A DNA stretch of 6,784 nt from the NCBI GenBank assembly GCA_946885815.1, contig CAMPHE010000095.1, forward strand, positions 1-6,784, read 5' to 3'. A model generated the notes under the pieces. That model saw only the letters and a program-made list of their open reading frames with translations. It was not told the origin of the DNA and searched no databases. Positions 1 to 6,784 of the stretch are shown piece after piece. The stretch is from an uncultured Arenimonas sp. Its GTDB lineage: Bacteria; Pseudomonadota; Gammaproteobacteria; Xanthomonadales; Xanthomonadaceae. Numbering within the stretch: the first letter of the stretch is position 1; each line of letters begins with the position of its first letter. The position numbers and the translations under genes were made by a program.

Positions 1-88
1 CACCGGTCGCGGCGGCGGCCTCGCCGATGTTGTGCAGGCCCTCGCGGCGGGCGTCGGCCAGTTCGGGGCGAAGGGTGGGGCGAGCCAT
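1..88 (-). CDS. MerR-family (CueR/HmrR-like) transcriptional regulator, partial: N-terminal 29 residues only
   Basis: The minus strand from the ATG at 88-86 reads MARPTLRPELADARREGLHN followed by IGEAAAATG and then runs off the window. The block N-I-G-E-A-A-A-A-T-G matches the start of the MerR winged-helix DNA-binding domain, and CueR/HmrR proteins typically begin MNIGxAAxxxG. Here about 18 extra residues precede that block. The ATG at 88 is supported by a GGAG about nine bases upstream, so the extension may be real. MerR proteins are dimers that bind between over-spaced -35 and -10 elements and underwind the promoter when metal binds. The metal-binding C-terminus, which would separate copper, silver/gold, zinc and lead sensors, is not visible. 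The assignment to a Cu(I)-type sensor rests on the operator sequence and the divergent Cys-rich peptide gene. A copper ATPase or chaperone downstream is possible but lies outside the window. Confidence 0.8.
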   Translation of the reverse strand, partial: MARPTLRPELADARREGLHNIGEAAAATG

Positions 89-117
89 GGCGGCGGTCTC
101 CGGTCGGGTCGCGCGCC

Positions 118-148
118 AGTCTGGACCTTCCCGCGTGGGCAAGGTCAA
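118..148 (-). promoter_or_regulatory. MerR/CueR-type promoter and operator (site 1) of the regulator gene
   Basis: Read on the minus strand, a -35 TTGACC (148-143) is followed by exactly 19 bases and a -10-like CAGACT (123-118). Transcription would start near 111, about 23 bases before the regulator ATG. The spacer is filled by a near-perfect dyad at 124-146: on the plus strand GACCTTCCC, five bases, then GGCAAGGTC, with one mismatch between the nine-base arms. CueR-type operators are known to carry ACCTTCC/GGAAGGT-like arms within a 19-base spacer. This suggests the regulator controls its own expression. Confidence 0.72.
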
Positions 149-173
149 TGCCGCGCGAGACCGAAACCCGCGG

Positions 174-204
174 TTGACCTTCCCATCGGGGCAAGCCCCA
201 GCCT
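174..204 (+). promoter_or_regulatory. MerR/CueR-type promoter and operator (site 2) of the Cys-rich peptide gene
   Basis: A -35 TTGACC (174-179) is followed by 19 bases and CAGCCT (199-204) as the -10 position. The start point would be near 211, giving a leader of about 31 bases before the ATG at 242. The spacer holds GACCTTCCC (176-184), five bases, then GGCAAGCCC (190-198). Fifteen of fifteen arm bases (GACCTTCCC and GGCAAG) are the same as in site 1, but the outer right arm (CCC instead of GTC) breaks the symmetry. The -10 is poor (A at position 2 and T at position 6 only), as expected of a promoter that needs activator-induced distortion. Site centres at about 135 and 187 are 52 bases apart. 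Confidence 0.7.
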
Positions 205-241
205 GTGCTCCGCGGCATCCCGCCGCCCACAGGAGAACGCC

Positions 242-355
242 ATGACCACCCCCGCCATCGACACCCCCGCCTGCCCGTGCTGCGCCTGCGCCGACTGCCG
301 CTGCACCGACTGCCGCTGCTGCCGCTGCACGCCGTGCGGGTGCCCGGACGCGTGA
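242..355 (+). CDS. 37-residue cysteine-rich metallothionein-like peptide, probably Cu(I)-induced
   Basis: The ATG at 242 has a good ribosome site, AGGAG at 231-235, six bases upstream. The product has 12 cysteines in 37 residues, at 11, 13, 14, 16, 19, 21, 24, 26, 27, 29, 32 and 34. Residues 1-10 (MTTPAIDTPA) lack cysteine. Then come two modules of the same pattern CxCCxCxxCxC (11-21 and 24-34), separated by Thr-Asp, and a short tail ending PDA. There is no signal peptide, histidine or aromatic residue, so it should be cytosolic and bind thiophilic metal through thiolates only. Such density and CxC/CC spacing is characteristic of metallothioneins, for example mycobacterial MymT or yeast Cup1, but I recognise no specific family. 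The MerR/CueR-like promoter and divergent regulator support a metal-buffering role, most likely Cu(I). Six thiolates per module could hold one small Cu-thiolate cluster each; that is inference. The next gene appears to have its own promoter, so this may be monocistronic. Confidence 0.8.
   Translation: MTTPAIDTPACPCCACADCRCTDCRCCRCTPCGCPDA
272..343 (+). repeat. Tandem 33-base cysteine modules (period 39) inside the peptide gene
   Basis: Bases 272-304 and 311-343 each encode CxCCxCxxCxC. All six cysteines per copy use TGC. The connecting codons ACC GAC (305-310) encode Thr-Asp. The non-cysteine residues differ between copies (P, A, A-D, R versus R, R, T-P, G), so this looks like an old internal duplication or convergent repetition rather than a recent slip. 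Confidence 0.75.
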
Positions 356-413
356 GGTCCTGAAAAGGCGTGGCCAGGCTTCCGCGAGCCGACGGCCCGC
401 TGCCGACGGCGCC

Positions 414-425
414 TATACTCGCGGC
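414..425 (+). promoter_or_regulatory. Extended -10-type promoter, TATACT six bases before an ATG
   Basis: TATACT (414-419) matches the sigma70 -10 consensus at five of six positions. It is followed by six bases and then ATG at 426, so transcription would start at or beside that A. No good -35 is visible 16-18 bases upstream. This is the likely promoter for the protein at 455-880. The region 356-413 before it contains only a 9-base direct repeat GCCGACGGC (388-396 and 402-410) and no convincing terminator. Confidence 0.45.
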
Positions 426-452
426 ATGACACCTCTCGATTCCCGCGGCTGA
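426..452 (+). other. Possible leaderless 8-codon mini-ORF (MTPLDSRG) ahead of the next gene
   Basis: ATG at 426 sits at the predicted transcription start and opens eight codons ending in TGA at 450-452, two bases before the ATG of the 141-residue protein and in a different frame. That downstream ATG lacks a recognisable Shine-Dalgarno sequence. Re-initiation after the mini-ORF is therefore conceivable. It may equally be untranslated leader, since eight codons can occur by chance. Confidence 0.2.
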
Positions 453-454
453 CG

Positions 455-880
455 ATGTCGATCCATTCCAAGGCCAGACGCGACGCACGCCGGAAGAAAT
501 CCCGCGGTGCCGCGCGCCCGGTGGCGGCGCGGCCGCTGGCCGAGCACGCGCATCTGGTCGACGGGCAGGGCCGGATTTTCGGCGGCGCCGGCCTGCGCGG
601 CGAGGAATGGCTGATGGTGCTCGGCGGCAAGGTCGTCACCGGCACCGACAGCGCGGCGATGATGCTGGCGATGCTGCGGCACGTCGCCACGCTGCGCGAG
701 GCTGCCGGCGACACCGTGCGGCTCAGCTATTCGACGCATCTCGGCGAGGCGGCCACGGCCGAAGCGGCCGCCGAAGGCAAGACGCTCGACGAGTATCTGG
801 CGCAGCTGGATGACGAGCGCGAGGAGCGGAAGCTCGAGGGCGATGCCGGCGCGGGCACCCACGGCATCGCGGAACACTGA
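455..880 (+). CDS. Conserved-looking hypothetical protein, 141 residues
   Basis: The frame runs from ATG 455 to TGA 878-880 with G/C-rich third positions. The product opens with a strongly basic segment (residues 1-18, with SKARRDARRKKSR), which could contact nucleic acid or simply be a flexible tail. A core follows (about 32-105: HLVDGQGRIFGGAGLRGEEW, VVTGTD and the helix-like SAAMMLAMLRHVATLREAAG), then Ala/Glu-rich helical sequence and an acidic stretch DDEREERKLEGD (about 119-130). There is no signal peptide or membrane helix, so it should be cytosolic. The opening MSIHSKARRDA resembles uncharacterised proteins that I associate with Xanthomonadaceae, but I cannot assign a function. It reads toward the serine hydrolase gene, with only 13 bases between the two stop codons and no clear terminator. 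No strong ribosome site precedes the start; an in-frame later start cannot be excluded. Confidence 0.75.
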   Translation: MSIHSKARRDARRKKSRGAARPVAARPLAEHAHLVDGQGRIFGGAGLRGEEWLMVLGGKVVTGTDSAAMMLAMLRHVATLREAAGDTVRLSYSTHLGEAATAEAAAEGKTLDEYLAQLDDEREERKLEGDAGAGTHGIAEH

Positions 881-2843: not shown

Positions 2844-2948
2844 GGTTCATCGCGGATCGTTCCGCACGTCGCCATGGTGGCCGCGCACGCTGGCCGCCAC
2901 CTGACACGCGATGCCCGGACGCGCCAGACTGCGGCAAGCTTTCGCGGC

Positions 2949-2954
2949 GACAAT
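2949..2954 (+). promoter_or_regulatory. Putative -10 of the response-regulator operon
   Basis: GACAAT (2949-2954) matches the -10 consensus at four of six positions and lies six bases before ATG 2961, the same geometry as TATACT before ATG 426. Transcription would begin near 2961. No TTGACA-like -35 is visible at normal spacing, so the promoter may rely on an activator, possibly the regulator itself. Confidence 0.35.
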
Positions 2955-2972
2955 CCCCCGATGGAAGACGGC

Positions 2973-3647
2973 ATGCGCATCCTGCTGGTCGAGGACGAGC
3001 CGACGCTGGCGGCGACGGTCGCGCGCGCGCTCGAACGCGAAGGCTGGGTCGTGGACCGCGTCGGCAGCCTCGCGCACGCGTTCGGCGCGGCGCTGAGCGC
3101 CGACTACCGCGTGATCCTGCTCGACCGCCGGCTTCCGGACGGCGACGGGCTGCGGCTGGTGGCCGTCGCGAAGTCGCGGCCGTCGCCGGCGTCGATCATC
3201 GTGCTGACCGCGCGCGACGAAATCGCCGATCGGATCGAAGGCCTCGACGCCGGCGCCGACGACTACCTCGTGAAGCCGTTCGCGCTTGGCGAGCTGCTGG
3301 CGCGGTTGCGCGCGGCGTGCCGGCGCCCGGGCGGCACGCCCGGCGCGCCGCCAATCGAAGTGGGACGGCTGGCGTTCGACCCGGCGTCGCGCGACGTGCG
3401 CGCGGGCGGCGTGCCGCTCGCCGTGCCGCGACGCGAGCTCGCGCTGCTCGAGCTGCTGCTGCGGCGCGCCGGCCGCGTCGTGCAGCGCGAGCACCTGGAG
3501 GGCGCGCTGTACGGCTTCGCGGCCGACGTCACCGCCAACGCGCTGGAAACACAGGTGTCGCGGCTGCGCAGGCGCCTGCAGGACGCCGGGGCCGACGTCG
3601 AAATCCGCACCGTCCGCGGCGTCGGGTACCTGCTCCAGCCATGCTGA
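2973..3647 (+). CDS. OmpR/PhoB-family two-component response regulator
   Basis: From the ATG at 2973 the product is 224 residues, the usual length. The receiver domain (about 1-117) opens MRILLVEDEP with acidic residues E7 and D8. The phosphoacceptor is D51 in LLDRRLPDGDG, the switch Thr is T79 (VLTA) and the conserved Lys is K101 (KPF). The winged-helix DNA-binding domain (about 127-222) contains ELALLELLLRRAGRVVQREH and ends in RTVRGVGYLL, the classic OmpR/PhoB signature. It should be phosphorylated by the overlapping downstream kinase and act as a cytosolic transcription factor. The start at 2973 has GGAAG five bases upstream and gives the canonical N-terminus. An in-frame ATG at 2961 would add MEDG and could be leaderless given the -10 at 2949. 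It overlaps the kinase gene by 7 bases (ATGCTGA). Regulated genes are unknown; the divergent serine hydrolase is the nearest candidate. Confidence 0.95.
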   Translation: MRILLVEDEPTLAATVARALEREGWVVDRVGSLAHAFGAALSADYRVILLDRRLPDGDGLRLVAVAKSRPSPASIIVLTARDEIADRIEGLDAGADDYLVKPFALGELLARLRAACRRPGGTPGAPPIEVGRLAFDPASRDVRAGGVPLAVPRRELALLELLLRRAGRVVQREHLEGALYGFAADVTANALETQVSRLRRRLQDAGADVEIRTVRGVGYLLQPC

Positions 3648-5023
3648 ACCGGCGGCCGTCGCTGAAGCTGCGCGCGGCCGCGATCTTCGTCGCGGTGTTC
3701 GCGACGGTGTTCGTCGCCGGCTTCGTGCTGTTCAGCTGGCGCAGCCTCGCGGCTGGCGGCGAACGCCACCACGCCGGCCCGACGATCGCGCTGAGCCTCG
3801 CGGCCGACACGGTGCGCCTGCACGGGGACACGCTGGTGCTGCCGGACGACGGCGCGCTCGCCGACATCGCCCGCGCCAATCCGCATTTCTGGCTGTTCGC
3901 CGACATCGCGGGCCACCACTACCGCCATGGCGACGTGCCGGCCGCCGCCGAACGGCTGCTCGTCGGCGACGGCTCGGGGCTGGGCATCGCCCGTTTCCAC
4001 GTGCGGGGCATCGACCGGCCGCTGTCCGACGCGTCGGTGGTGCGGCAGGGCGGGGCGCTGTTCGCGGCGGGCGGCATCGACCCGTCCACGATCACCCTCG
4101 CGCACGCGCTGCACTACCTGTTCCGCGAAGGCCTGCTGCTGATCGTCGTCGGCGTCGGCGTGGTGGCGACGACCGCGCTGCTGGTCGCGGTGCCGCTGCT
4201 GACCGCGGCGCTGCGGCCGCTGGTGGCCGACGCGGTCGCCGTCGGGCCGGACGACCCGGACCACCGCATCGGCGAGCGACGCGTGCCGGGCGAGCTGCTG
4301 CCACTCGTGCGCAGCTTCAACGCCGCGCTCGACCGGCTGTCTGACGAACTCGGGCGTCGGCGTCGCTTCGTCACCGATGTGGCGCATGAATTGCGGACGC
4401 CTCTGGCGATCGTTTCGCTGCAGGCCGAGGCGCTCCCTCCAGGACCCGCGCGCACCGAGTTGCAGCGCGTCGTGACGCGGATGGTGCATCTGGTCGGGCA
4501 GATGCTCGACGTCGAACGGCTGTCGCTGGCGGCGCGGCGACCGGCGACGATCGATCTGGTCGCGCTGGCGAAGGATGTGGTCGGCGAAATGGCGCCGCTG
4601 GCGATCGCGTCGGGTTACGAACTGGGCCTGCGGGCGCCGGCGTGCCCGGTGCAGGTACCGGCGGACGCGAACGCGATCACCCGGGCGCTGACGAATCTGG
4701 TCGCGAACGCCGTCGCGCACGGGGGCGGCCGCGGCGAGATCAGCGTCATCGTCGGCGGCGATGCCACGGTCGACGTCGTCGACGAGGGTCCCGGCGTACC
4801 GCTGGCGCTGCGCGGCCACCTGTTCGAGCCGTTCTCGCGCGAACGCTGGGACCGCGACGGCTGCGGCCTCGGACTGCACCTGACGCGCGAGATCATGCGG
4901 GCGCATGGCGGGGACGCCGAGCTGCTCGAATCGACGCGAGGCGCGGCCTTCCGGCTGCGTTTCGCACGATCCGACGCGCCGTCGCTCACATCTGCCGGAA
5001 CACGTGCAGGAATGCCCGGCTGA
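3641..5023 (+). CDS. Two-component sensor histidine kinase (HAMP/HisKA/HATPase)
   Basis: The product is 460 residues. Transmembrane helix 1 is at about 12-32, a periplasmic sensor region of about 130 residues follows (33-162), then helix 2 (about 163-188), a HAMP-like linker (about 189-240) and the kinase core. The phosphorylated His is H249 in DVAHELRTPL. The N-box has N352 and N356 (LTNLVANAVAHG), the G1 box is DEGPGV (381-386), the F-box FEPFSR (395-400) and the G2 box GCGLGL (407-412). All catalytic elements are intact. The ATG at 3641 overlaps the regulator stop and lacks a good ribosome site, so translational coupling is likely. The periplasmic region has no family signature I recognise, so the stimulus is unknown. 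The last 20 or so residues lie beyond the ATPase fold, and the final 12 codons overlap the convergent LytTR regulator gene. Confidence 0.95.
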   Translation: MLNRRPSLKLRAAAIFVAVFATVFVAGFVLFSWRSLAAGGERHHAGPTIALSLAADTVRLHGDTLVLPDDGALADIARANPHFWLFADIAGHHYRHGDVPAAAERLLVGDGSGLGIARFHVRGIDRPLSDASVVRQGGALFAAGGIDPSTITLAHALHYLFREGLLLIVVGVGVVATTALLVAVPLLTAALRPLVADAVAVGPDDPDHRIGERRVPGELLPLVRSFNAALDRLSDELGRRRRFVTDVAHELRTPLAIVSLQAEALPPGPARTELQRVVTRMVHLVGQMLDVERLSLAARRPATIDLVALAKDVVGEMAPLAIASGYELGLRAPACPVQVPADANAITRALTNLVANAVAHGGGRGEISVIVGGDATVDVVDEGPGVPLALRGHLFEPFSRERWDRDGCGLGLHLTREIMRAHGGDAELLESTRGAAFRLRFARSDAPSLTSAGTRAGMPG

Positions 5024-5771
5024 CCGGCAGCACCTCGTCGCGGCCCTTCAGGTGGACCGCCGCCGTCTCGTTGTCGTGTTTCACCACATGGTCGATCGCG
5101 CGCAGGTTCACCACCACCGCGCGGTGCACCTGCACGAAACGCTCCGGGTCCAGCTGCCCGAGCAGTTCGCGCAGCGGCGTGCGCACCAGCGCGTCCGTCG
5201 CCGGGCCGGTGTCGCCGCGCCAGCCGATGCGCGTGTACTTCTCGTCCGCGCGCAGGAAATCGATCTCGTCGACGCCGATCACGCGCACCGTCTGCCCCAC
5301 CGACGCGCGCAGCCAGCGCAGGCCGGGCGGCGGCGCGCCGCGCGCGAGCCGCGCCGCGAGCGTGGCGATCAGCGCGTCCGTGTCGCCGGCCGGCCGCGCG
5401 GCGCCGAGCCGCTCCTGCACGCGCGCGACGGTGTCGGCGAGCCGCGCCGGTTCGACCGGCTTCACGAGGTAGTCGAGCGCCCCGTGCGCGAACGCCTGCA
5501 CCGCGTACGCGTCGAACGCGGTGACGAACACCAGCTGGGCGCGGCGGCCGATCAGCGCCGCCGCCTCGACGCCCGACAGGCCGGGCATCTGCACGTCGAG
5601 GAAGCAGACGTCGGGACGCAGCGCCTCGAAGCTCTCCACCGCCTCGCGGCCGTTGCGGCATTCGGCGACCACGCGCAGCGCCGGCCATGCGGCCGCGAGC
5701 GCACGCACGAGCGCCGCGCGCAGCAGCGGCTCGTCGTCGGCGACCAGCGCGGTCGGACCGTCCGGCGTCAT
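4986..5771 (-). CDS. LytTR-family (AlgR/LytR-type) response regulator
   Basis: The product is 261 residues. The receiver domain (about 6-122) has acidic D12 and D13 (ADDEP), phosphoacceptor D59 in CFLDVQMPGLSG, T84 in VFVTAF and K104 in YLVKP. A short linker leads to a LytTR DNA-binding domain (about 152-258) with the typical segments DEIDFLRADEKYTRI, ERFVQVHRAVVVNL and LPVSRAF. LytTR proteins bind paired short direct repeats and often control envelope, exopolysaccharide or virulence genes. The ATG at 5771 overlaps the kinase stop by four bases (ATGA). GGAGG lies ten bases upstream inside the kinase gene, so the pair is one operon with coupled translation. The stop at 4986-4988 lies inside the opposite-strand kinase gene. 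Which genes it controls cannot be told from this window. Confidence 0.95.
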   Translation of the reverse strand: MTPDGPTALVADDEPLLRAALVRALAAAWPALRVVAECRNGREAVESFEALRPDVCFLDVQMPGLSGVEAAALIGRRAQLVFVTAFDAYAVQAFAHGALDYLVKPVEPARLADTVARVQERLGAARPAGDTDALIATLAARLARGAPPPGLRWLRASVGQTVRVIGVDEIDFLRADEKYTRIGWRGDTGPATDALVRTPLRELLGQLDPERFVQVHRAVVVNLRAIDHVVKHDNETAAVHLKGRDEVLPVSRAFLHVFRQM

Positions 5772-6784
5772 GGCGCCGACGCCTCCGGACGGTCGCTCGC
5801 CGCCGCAGGCGCGCGATAGCTGACGGTCGCGACCGTGCCGCGCGGGACGTGGGGCGCCAGCGTGACCGTGGCGTCGTCGCCGTGTGCCATCCGCAGCCGG
5901 TCGCGCAGCGCGTCCAGCCCCGTGCCGAGGCCTTCGCGTCCGCCTCGCACGCCGACACCGGTGTCGGTGACGCGCAGCACCACGCGGCCGTCGCGCACCG
6001 ACGCGGCGATGTCGATCCGGCCACCGGCTTCCGACGGATCGATGCCGTGCCGCACCGCGTTTTCGACCAGCGTCAGCAGCGCCATCGGCGGGCTCGGCTG
6101 CCCCAGCGCGGCCGGCGCCGCATCGATCGCGAACGTCAGCCGGTCCGGCATGCGCATGTGCATCACCTCCAGGTAGGCGCGCGCGAGTTCCACTTCGCGC
6201 GCCACCGTGTTCGCCGGCTCGTGCAGCCGCGGCACCGCGGCACGCAGGTAGTCGATCAGGTGCCCCAGCACCGCGCCCGCCTGCGGCGCGCCGGTCTCGA
6301 CGAGTTCGCGCACGTTCGCGAGCGTGTTGAACAGGAAGTGCGGCTCGACCTGCGCCGCGACCACGCGCATCCGCGCATCCAGCGCCTGGCGCTCCAGCTC
6401 GCTGCGCTCCAGCGCGAACGCGAGCGCCTGCGCCCGTGCGCGTTCGCCGACCTGCCGGTAGAGCGACGCCATCGCCATCCACGGCGCGATGATCACCGTG
6501 AGGCTGCTGAGCATGCCGTAGCCGATCATCCGCTCCTGGTTCATCCAGAACGGCTGCGGGTCGTGCTGCGTCGTCAGCACGTAGGCGAACCACAGCGTCG
6601 GCGGGCCCACGAACGCCACGCCGGCGCATTGCAGCACCCAGCGCGCCAGCCAGCGCGGCAGCCGCCGCGGTCGGGTTTCGAGCAGGCCGAACGCGAGCAG
6701 GCACGCGGTCGCCGTCATCAGCAGGCGCGGCAGCAGTTCGCCGAAGCGGTCGCCCTCCCAGCCGGGCGACAGCAGCAGGAACAC
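5768..6784 (-). CDS. LytS/AlgZ/YehU-type sensor histidine kinase, N-terminus outside the window
   Basis: There are 338 visible codons open to the window edge. The edge codon is GTG with no visible upstream context, so the gene most likely continues beyond 6784. The visible N-terminal part has about three hydrophobic helices (roughly 18-37, 47-72 and 88-108 of the visible residues). A coiled-coil-like stretch rich in Glu, Arg and Ala (about 112-145) follows. The His_kinase domain has the invariant VEPHFLFNTLANVREL with H149. The ATPase part shows N242 in VENAVRHG, DTGVGV (274-279) and GLGTGL (285-290). This is the LytS/AlgZ class, which pairs with LytTR regulators, as here. It should sit in the inner membrane and phosphorylate D59 of the overlapping regulator. 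The signal is unknown. The C-terminus after the ATPase fold is a short Ala/Pro-rich tail. Confidence 0.92.
   Translation of the reverse strand: MFLLLSPGWEGDRFGELLPRLLMTATACLLAFGLLETRPRRLPRWLARWVLQCAGVAFVGPPTLWFAYVLTTQHDPQPFWMNQERMIGYGMLSSLTVIIAPWMAMASLYRQVGERARAQALAFALERSELERQALDARMRVVAAQVEPHFLFNTLANVRELVETGAPQAGAVLGHLIDYLRAAVPRLHEPANTVAREVELARAYLEVMHMRMPDRLTFAIDAAPAALGQPSPPMALLTLVENAVRHGIDPSEAGGRIDIAASVRDGRVVLRVTDTGVGVRGGREGLGTGLDALRDRLRMAHGDDATVTLAPHVPRGTVATVSYRAPAAASDRPEASAP

Follow-up and report, generated by a model that had tools for sequence, protein, structure and literature searches.

A 12-cysteine, metallothionein-like peptide gene facing a CueR-type regulator in an Arenimonas contig and five relatives: a putative copper-buffering unit

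A very small gene encoding a 12-cysteine, metallothionein-like peptide lies divergent from the start of a CueR-type merR gene in DNA from an uncultured Arenimonas sp. (contig CAMPHE010000095.1; Table 1), and we propose, with a probability of roughly 0.7, that the two genes form a copper (monovalent coinage metal) response unit in which Cu(I)-bound CueR would induce a cytosolic Cu(I) buffer. The stretch analysed, referred to here as the window, is 6,784 nt long. As read from sequence comparison, the peptide with its 12 cysteines, the promoter layout and a dyad in the leader are conserved, the CueR-class link is found in five of the six relatives, there is no conserved downstream gene, and CueR has a partner different from copA. 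The function of the peptide is strongly suggested by these comparisons, and from them we infer the identity of the metal, its binding and stoichiometry, induction, autoregulation, the buffering role and the cytosolic location of the peptide.

Table 1. Features of the divergent gene pair (window coordinates unless a locus is named)
Feature	Position	Strand	Description
5' end of CueR-type merR gene	2-88	-	First 29 codons; gene runs off the window
Predicted regulator promoter/operator	118-148	-	TTGACC - 19 bp - CAGACT; dyad 6/7 pairs
Predicted peptide promoter/operator	174-204	+	TTGACC - 19 bp - CAGCCT; dyad 4/7 pairs
Conserved leader dyad	212-226	+	GCGGC-ATCCC-GCCGC; predicted 5' end of mRNA; kept in 7/7 members
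Shine-Dalgarno sequence	231-235	+	AGGAG; read directly
12-Cys metallothionein-like peptide gene	242-355	+	37 aa; CxCCxCxxCxC-N2-CxCCxCxxCxC; read from ORF and alignment
Leader dyad in relatives	L153 3015-3029; L154 3053-3067; L155 2769-2783; L159 2763-2777		Also in L197 and L198

The peptide gene

The encoded peptide, MTTPAIDTPACPCCACADCRCTDCRCCRCTPCGCPDA, has cysteine at 12 of its 37 positions, and in size and composition (small, ~30% Cys, with conserved CxC and CC motifs) it falls within the metallothionein class. Its best 26-residue stretch contains 12 cysteines, compared with a maximum of 7 in the window outside this gene and 4-7 in each of 100 dinucleotide shuffles of the window; a 7-Cys DNA pattern occurs once in the window and in 0 of 200 shuffles. 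The layout given in a preliminary description of this DNA, with a MerR N-terminus, CueR-like promoters of 19-bp spacing, a 12-Cys ORF and a ribosome site, is confirmed from the sequence.

Family libraries do not recognise the peptide. There are no profile matches in Pfam (the window peptide and seven others), NCBIfam (the window peptide and four others) or PHROGs (the window and L159 peptides), and the peptide profile has no match in the PDB. Among 5.8 billion proteins a search with the window peptide as a single sequence found no relative, and a five-row alignment found two, whose lengths are 45 and 76 aa and which JGI lists as 'hypothetical proteins'; the near-absence from annotation that had been anticipated is thus borne out. 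Judged by these searches and the homologues below, the CueR-linked Cys-rich peptide family is real, conserved and nearly unannotated.

Relatives and distribution

The gene at window coordinates 455-880 is matched in all three genomes tried, two of Lysobacter and one of Stenotrophomonas, and the family searched for homologues was that of the Lysobacter genome (Lysobacteraceae in NCBI naming, which we take to be the former Xanthomonadaceae). A DNA search of 297 family genomes gave many matches to the start of the regulator and, in genome G198, a regulator match and a peptide match close together. Forty regions were fetched, 33 round regulator-start matches picked among the matches listed and seven round weak peptide-side matches (L186-L192); these seven have no regulator (two weak chance matches) and no peptide pattern, and are left out of the 33-locus counts. 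Cys-rich flags at L158, L165, L169, L178, L180 and L185 proved to be off-frame readings.

At four of the 33 regulator loci a 12-Cys peptide is divergent from the regulator, and a profile built from these four and the window was run on 395 family genomes. It gave seven matches: the four profile rows, new members in G131 and G308, and a spurious match in G353 (E 5e-4) that was rejected as chance after reading. True homologues are therefore present in six of the 395 genomes (G198, G308, G154, G005, G104 and G131); together with the window they make up the seven peptide loci discussed below, the two JGI proteins being counted apart.

Each of the seven peptides has 12 cysteines, in the common pattern CxCCxCxxCxCxxCxCCxC followed by CxC or a looser ending; the first cysteine of the L198 peptide is shifted by one residue. 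The two-residue linker between cysteine blocks, part of the pattern first described, holds for the window and fails for L155, whose last linker is longer. Pairwise identity is 204/210 over the 10 core Cys columns and 35/189 over the other core columns. Values of dN/dS on the 19-codon core are noisy (0.22-1.87 over 19 pairs, with two pairs unsolved) and exceed 1 in three of the 19, L153 being involved in all three. Conservation of the ORF and its cysteines, the lack of which the preliminary description had named as evidence against its proposal, is thus seen in six relatives.

The same description supposed that the system could be widespread, and this did not hold up. In the genus of G131 the peptide is present in 3 of 27 genomes, none of them new, and in the genus of G104 in one of three, G104 itself. 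Samples of the order (299 genomes, three matches), the class (369 genomes, two matches: G198 and a chance repeat in G968, E 9e-4, which was rejected) and the phylum (185 genomes, one match: G198) yielded no new member; these samples overlap, and the wider ones are thin. Tblastn of plasmids with the peptide gave no match. A genome-wide search with the 7-Cys DNA pattern returned at least 118 stretches, whose translations, where read, were poly-Cys/TGC repeats or chance frames and none peptide-like, and this search is uninformative on distribution. Because it occurs in so few genomes of the family and in no new genome of the order, class and phylum samples, the peptide seems to be a trait of a single family, with a rare and patchy occurrence; such rarity fits a dispensable accessory, and we have counted it against our main reading.

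The regulator and its partner

The 29 regulator residues inside the window, read from a start at 88 on the reverse strand (MARPTLRPELADARREGLHNIGEAAAATG), have no match in Pfam or NCBIfam; 24 of the 29 are identical in L155 and likewise in L159, and there is 91% identity over 23 residues to the unlinked CueR of G131. The full-length regulator of G104, the one relative tested, scores 166.1 bits against the TIGR02044 CueR equivalog (cut-off 147.4), has E. coli CueR as its best PDB matches, and in alignment with E. coli CueR keeps the C-x7-C loop cysteines and the Ser of RxSAxVK. C-x7-C is present in 35 of 35 regulators read, those of all six peptide genomes included; the window copy ends at residue 29. 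The G104 score and this motif agree with the CueR-class assignment made earlier, and the full-length regulators of the relatives carry the metal-binding cysteines whose absence had been named as evidence against it.

The peptide faces the regulator in five of the six relatives, and in G131 the peptide and CueR genes are 4.4 kb apart. In four of the six peptide genomes the linked CueR is the sole match at E<=1e-6. The regulator tree places the five linked CueRs together with support of 86/78, which falls short of its firm-branch mark, the bootstrap being unsettled, and the G131 CueR falls outside this group, among copA-type regulators; the label on the tree requires 2 changes, compared with a shuffled mean of 5.7, and 0 of 500 shuffles are as low. 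In G131 (L246, G131:C11:42000-54000) the CueR gene is followed by a heme oxygenase-like ORF and a bacteriophytochrome-like ORF, both identified by eye.

Because the search for regulator loci used similarity to the start of the window regulator, these loci are not random samples. The peptide is lacking at 29 of the 33, and at 28 of these a CopA-type ATPase gene lies directly upstream on the same strand (the copA-cueR arrangement); the CopA query was taken from one of them (L158, in G159), and identity to it is 62-74% among the other 27. The remaining locus, L162 (G105), has a third arrangement: its CueR gene faces a divergent multicopper oxidase gene instead of copA. At a threshold of 1e-10 copA is absent from the four peptide loci and from the wider loci (12-19 kb) of all six members. 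Since 28 of the 29 other loci have copA upstream and one has a multicopper oxidase, the partner of CueR at the peptide loci is a different one.

The genomes with the peptide vary in their copper ATPases. The best CopA matches are at 1.2e-289 in G198, 3.1e-262 in G308, 6.0e-154 in G154, 2.8e-146 in G005, 4.4e-101 in G104 and 1.5e-95 in G131. The only Cu-type ATPase in G154 and G005 is a more distant one, with about 45-48% identity. CopA was not found in G104 or G131, each of which has a single CPC-motif ATPase among its PF00122 matches, presumably CcoI-like as judged by eye; G104 also has one non-CPC P-type ATPase. The contig with the G104 regulator is 3.93 Mb long, and the listed size of that genome is 3.9 Mb. 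Many family genomes lacking the peptide have no CopA match better than 1e-100, and 17 of the 395 have none at 1e-20. Since many members of the family are without both CopA and the peptide, we do not claim that the peptide replaces CopA or is tied to its absence.

In G198 an unlinked copA has two CueR-type operators in its direction, and because the peptide-linked CueR is the sole match in this genome (E<=1e-6), one regulator probably serves both the peptide gene and copA. Three CueR-type operators lie near this copA (L228, G198 C4), and the one facing away suggests a further CueR target there.

Promoters and leader element

CueR promoters have a 19-bp spacer, and this spacing is found at both window promoters and in 7 of 7 peptide genes, in each of which the spacer separates TTGACCTT from a weak -10 whose last base is T; in L155 a second TTGACC lies 7 nt downstream of the -35 set by alignment. 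With one mismatch at most, the same architecture is present at 27 of the 28 copA-cueR loci. The earlier call of CueR-type promoters is therefore supported; TTGACC, the long spacer and a weak -10 are present on both sides. A generic sigma-70 scan found neither window promoter because it allows spacers of 16-18 bp, and a long spacer is described as typical of MerR-activated genes (PMC12301328). The regulator-side promoter has a counterpart in four of the five divergent relatives, two with one mismatch in TTGACC, and none was found in L155.

The dyad on the peptide side has 4 of 7 pairs in the window, 3 in L153, 5 in L154, 4 in L155, 6 in L159, 2 in L197 (G131) and 5 in L198. The 29 copA-direction operators, comprising those of 27 copA-cueR loci and two at the unlinked copA of G198, have 4-7 of 7 pairs in a set selected at >=4, and the L153 and G131 peptide dyads are under this cut. 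With such weak dyads the peptide operators are less symmetric than those of copA. The unlinked peptide gene of G131 retains the -35, the spacing and the leader, and hardly the dyad.

Ahead of its start codon each of the seven peptide genes carries CGGC-N5-GCCG, at a near-constant distance of 39 nt (38 in L197) counted from the first base of the -35. Six of the genes have G-C as the outer pair of this leader dyad and one has A-U; four of its five pairs never vary and one is compensatory; 70 of 500 shuffles are as good. Of 251 loci, 19 contain the 15-mer GCGGCAATCGGCCGC, and every one of these is a stretch over the peptide locus of G198, G104, G154 or G005. CGGC-N5-GCCG was not found within 79 nt of any of the 29 copA-direction operators (four have another hairpin nearby), and because it accompanies every peptide gene and no copA-direction operator, the element marks peptide genes. 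Its reading as an energetically special RNA is not supported: six of the seven leaders (L155 was left out) gave folding z-scores of -0.49 to +0.60, three of them (window, L154 and L198) form the hairpin in their minimum-energy fold, and folding support is not beyond chance, the conservation itself standing. Rfam gave nothing above the gathering score in window 1-600. The element may act as an mRNA-stabilising 5' hairpin or as a second protein-binding site.

Surrounding genes

L153 has an intrinsic terminator beyond the ORF; none was found after it in the window, L154 or L155, and the last two have stable hairpins without a U-run. A same-strand gene begins 100 nt downstream of the ORF in the window, and across the seven loci no conserved gene was found within 2.5 kb downstream. 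The window protein encoded at 455-880 is conserved, has no Pfam match, and adjoins a beta-lactamase-fold gene (897-2831); the same pairing occurs twice in G131 (L245 2794-3135 and 6499-6843), about 11-15 kb from the peptide. The remainder of the window (2874-6784) encodes an OmpR-type regulator and histidine kinase and then, on the other strand, a LytTR regulator and a His_kinase-family sensor.

Proposed function and alternatives

In the mechanism that we propose, dimers of the CueR-type regulator would occupy both divergent promoters, and Cu(I) (also Ag or Au) binding to the two C-terminal loop cysteines would remodel the 19-bp-spaced promoters, switching on expression of the peptide and also, through autoregulation, of the regulator; the activation of both promoters by Cu(I) would follow the CueR mechanism (PMC7558416). 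The 12 thiolates, with their CC and CxC motifs, would form a multinuclear Cu(I) cluster, and we infer direct thiolate buffering of Cu(I), Ag or Au, by which the cell would sequester surplus copper in the peptide in addition to exporting it, or instead of doing so. In G198, and probably also in G308, the peptide would act alongside CopA, and buffering may carry more of the load in G104 and G131, since CopA was not found there and the CcoI-like ATPase is the only CPC type. A more far-reaching version, which we hold tentatively and consider rather doubtful, is that CueR was rewired from export to sequestration in a few of the Lysobacteraceae, an ancestral copA-cueR operon having given way to a cassette of free-standing cueR and micro-metallothionein with a leader element of its own, and that the CopA-less G104 and G131 rely chiefly on the peptide for defence against cytosolic Cu(I).

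The CcoI-like nature of that sole ATPase (judged by eye) leaves delivery rather than export in G104 and G131, and the peptide could accordingly store Cu(I) for cuproenzymes or deliver it to them as a chaperone, for instance in cbb3 oxidase assembly, instead of being a detoxifying buffer. A 12-Cys peptide lacks the single defined site of CopZ-type chaperones with their HMA fold, however, and control by a CueR-type sensor of excess copper suggests a response to surplus, and we consider this reading unlikely. It seems quite improbable that the peptide is a Zn/Cd metallothionein beside CueR by chance; although SmtA and the Pseudomonas metallothionein do handle these metals (PMC7387436), the window peptide and five of its six relatives have no His (L155 has one), and the CueR-type promoter layout accompanies all seven genes.

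The shortness of the ORF, its conserved leader dyad, the closely following same-strand gene in the window and the three loci at which no terminator was found would suit a Cys-rich leader peptide with a regulatory role, which would respond to copper or Cys-tRNA and control the gene downstream; such a role is very improbable given that the seven loci share no downstream gene and that L153 terminates just after the ORF. A Cys-free N-terminal segment followed by a Cys-rich core likewise recalls the precursor of a modified (RiPP-like) copper peptide, yet the lack of any shared gene in the 2.5 kb downstream argues against this, and we give it the slightest of chances. Our preferred reading thus remains the copper-responsive metallothionein-like buffer.

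Relation to known systems

No CueR-controlled metallothionein is among the matches listed in the open-access literature. Several known systems share some features with the unit proposed here. Yeast Cup1, which is eukaryotic, copper-induced and has 12 cysteines in a different spacing, is an analogue of the peptide, and no homology is claimed. Of the bacterial proteins, the mycobacterial copper metallothionein MymT is under the CsoR-family repressor RicR and not CueR, SmtB is an ArsR-family repressor, and the Csp3 copper storage proteins are far longer than the peptide.

The nearest precedent in the literature searched is Zrd of Pseudomonas aeruginosa, also a previously unannotated small Cys protein under a MerR-family sensor (CadR), for which sequestration is proposed; unlike the peptide it answers to a Zn/Cd sensor, has two zinc-ribbon Cys4 sites and lies between two converging genes rather than opposite its regulator gene (PMC12301328). 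MymT is likewise tiny, Cys-rich and originally non-annotated, is needed for Cu resistance and has a predicted capacity of up to six Cu(I) (PMC7558416). In SmtA/SmtB a bacterial metallothionein gene, smtA, is divergent from a metal regulator as here, but SmtA/SmtB and the Pseudomonas metallothioneins concern Zn/Cd (PMC7387436), and the present peptide matches no Pfam family. CueR-copA, cueO and copZ regulons have the regulator family and promoter architecture in common with this unit, whereas their output is an ATPase, oxidase or chaperone and not a thiolate peptide, and Csp3 is also a cytosolic multi-Cys Cu(I) store but a four-helix bundle (PMC7558416).

If our reading is true, the best-studied copper sensor of bacteria would gain a thiolate-buffer output, and the known peptide families would gain one with a Cys pattern that gene callers and family libraries overlook. 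The peptide itself, 37 aa long, would be a candidate for Cu(I) binding, and others may be findable by examining CueR operators not followed by any annotated gene. On this reading, export and buffering could also be tested against each other, since related species pair one kind of sensor with a gene for either a pump or a sponge.
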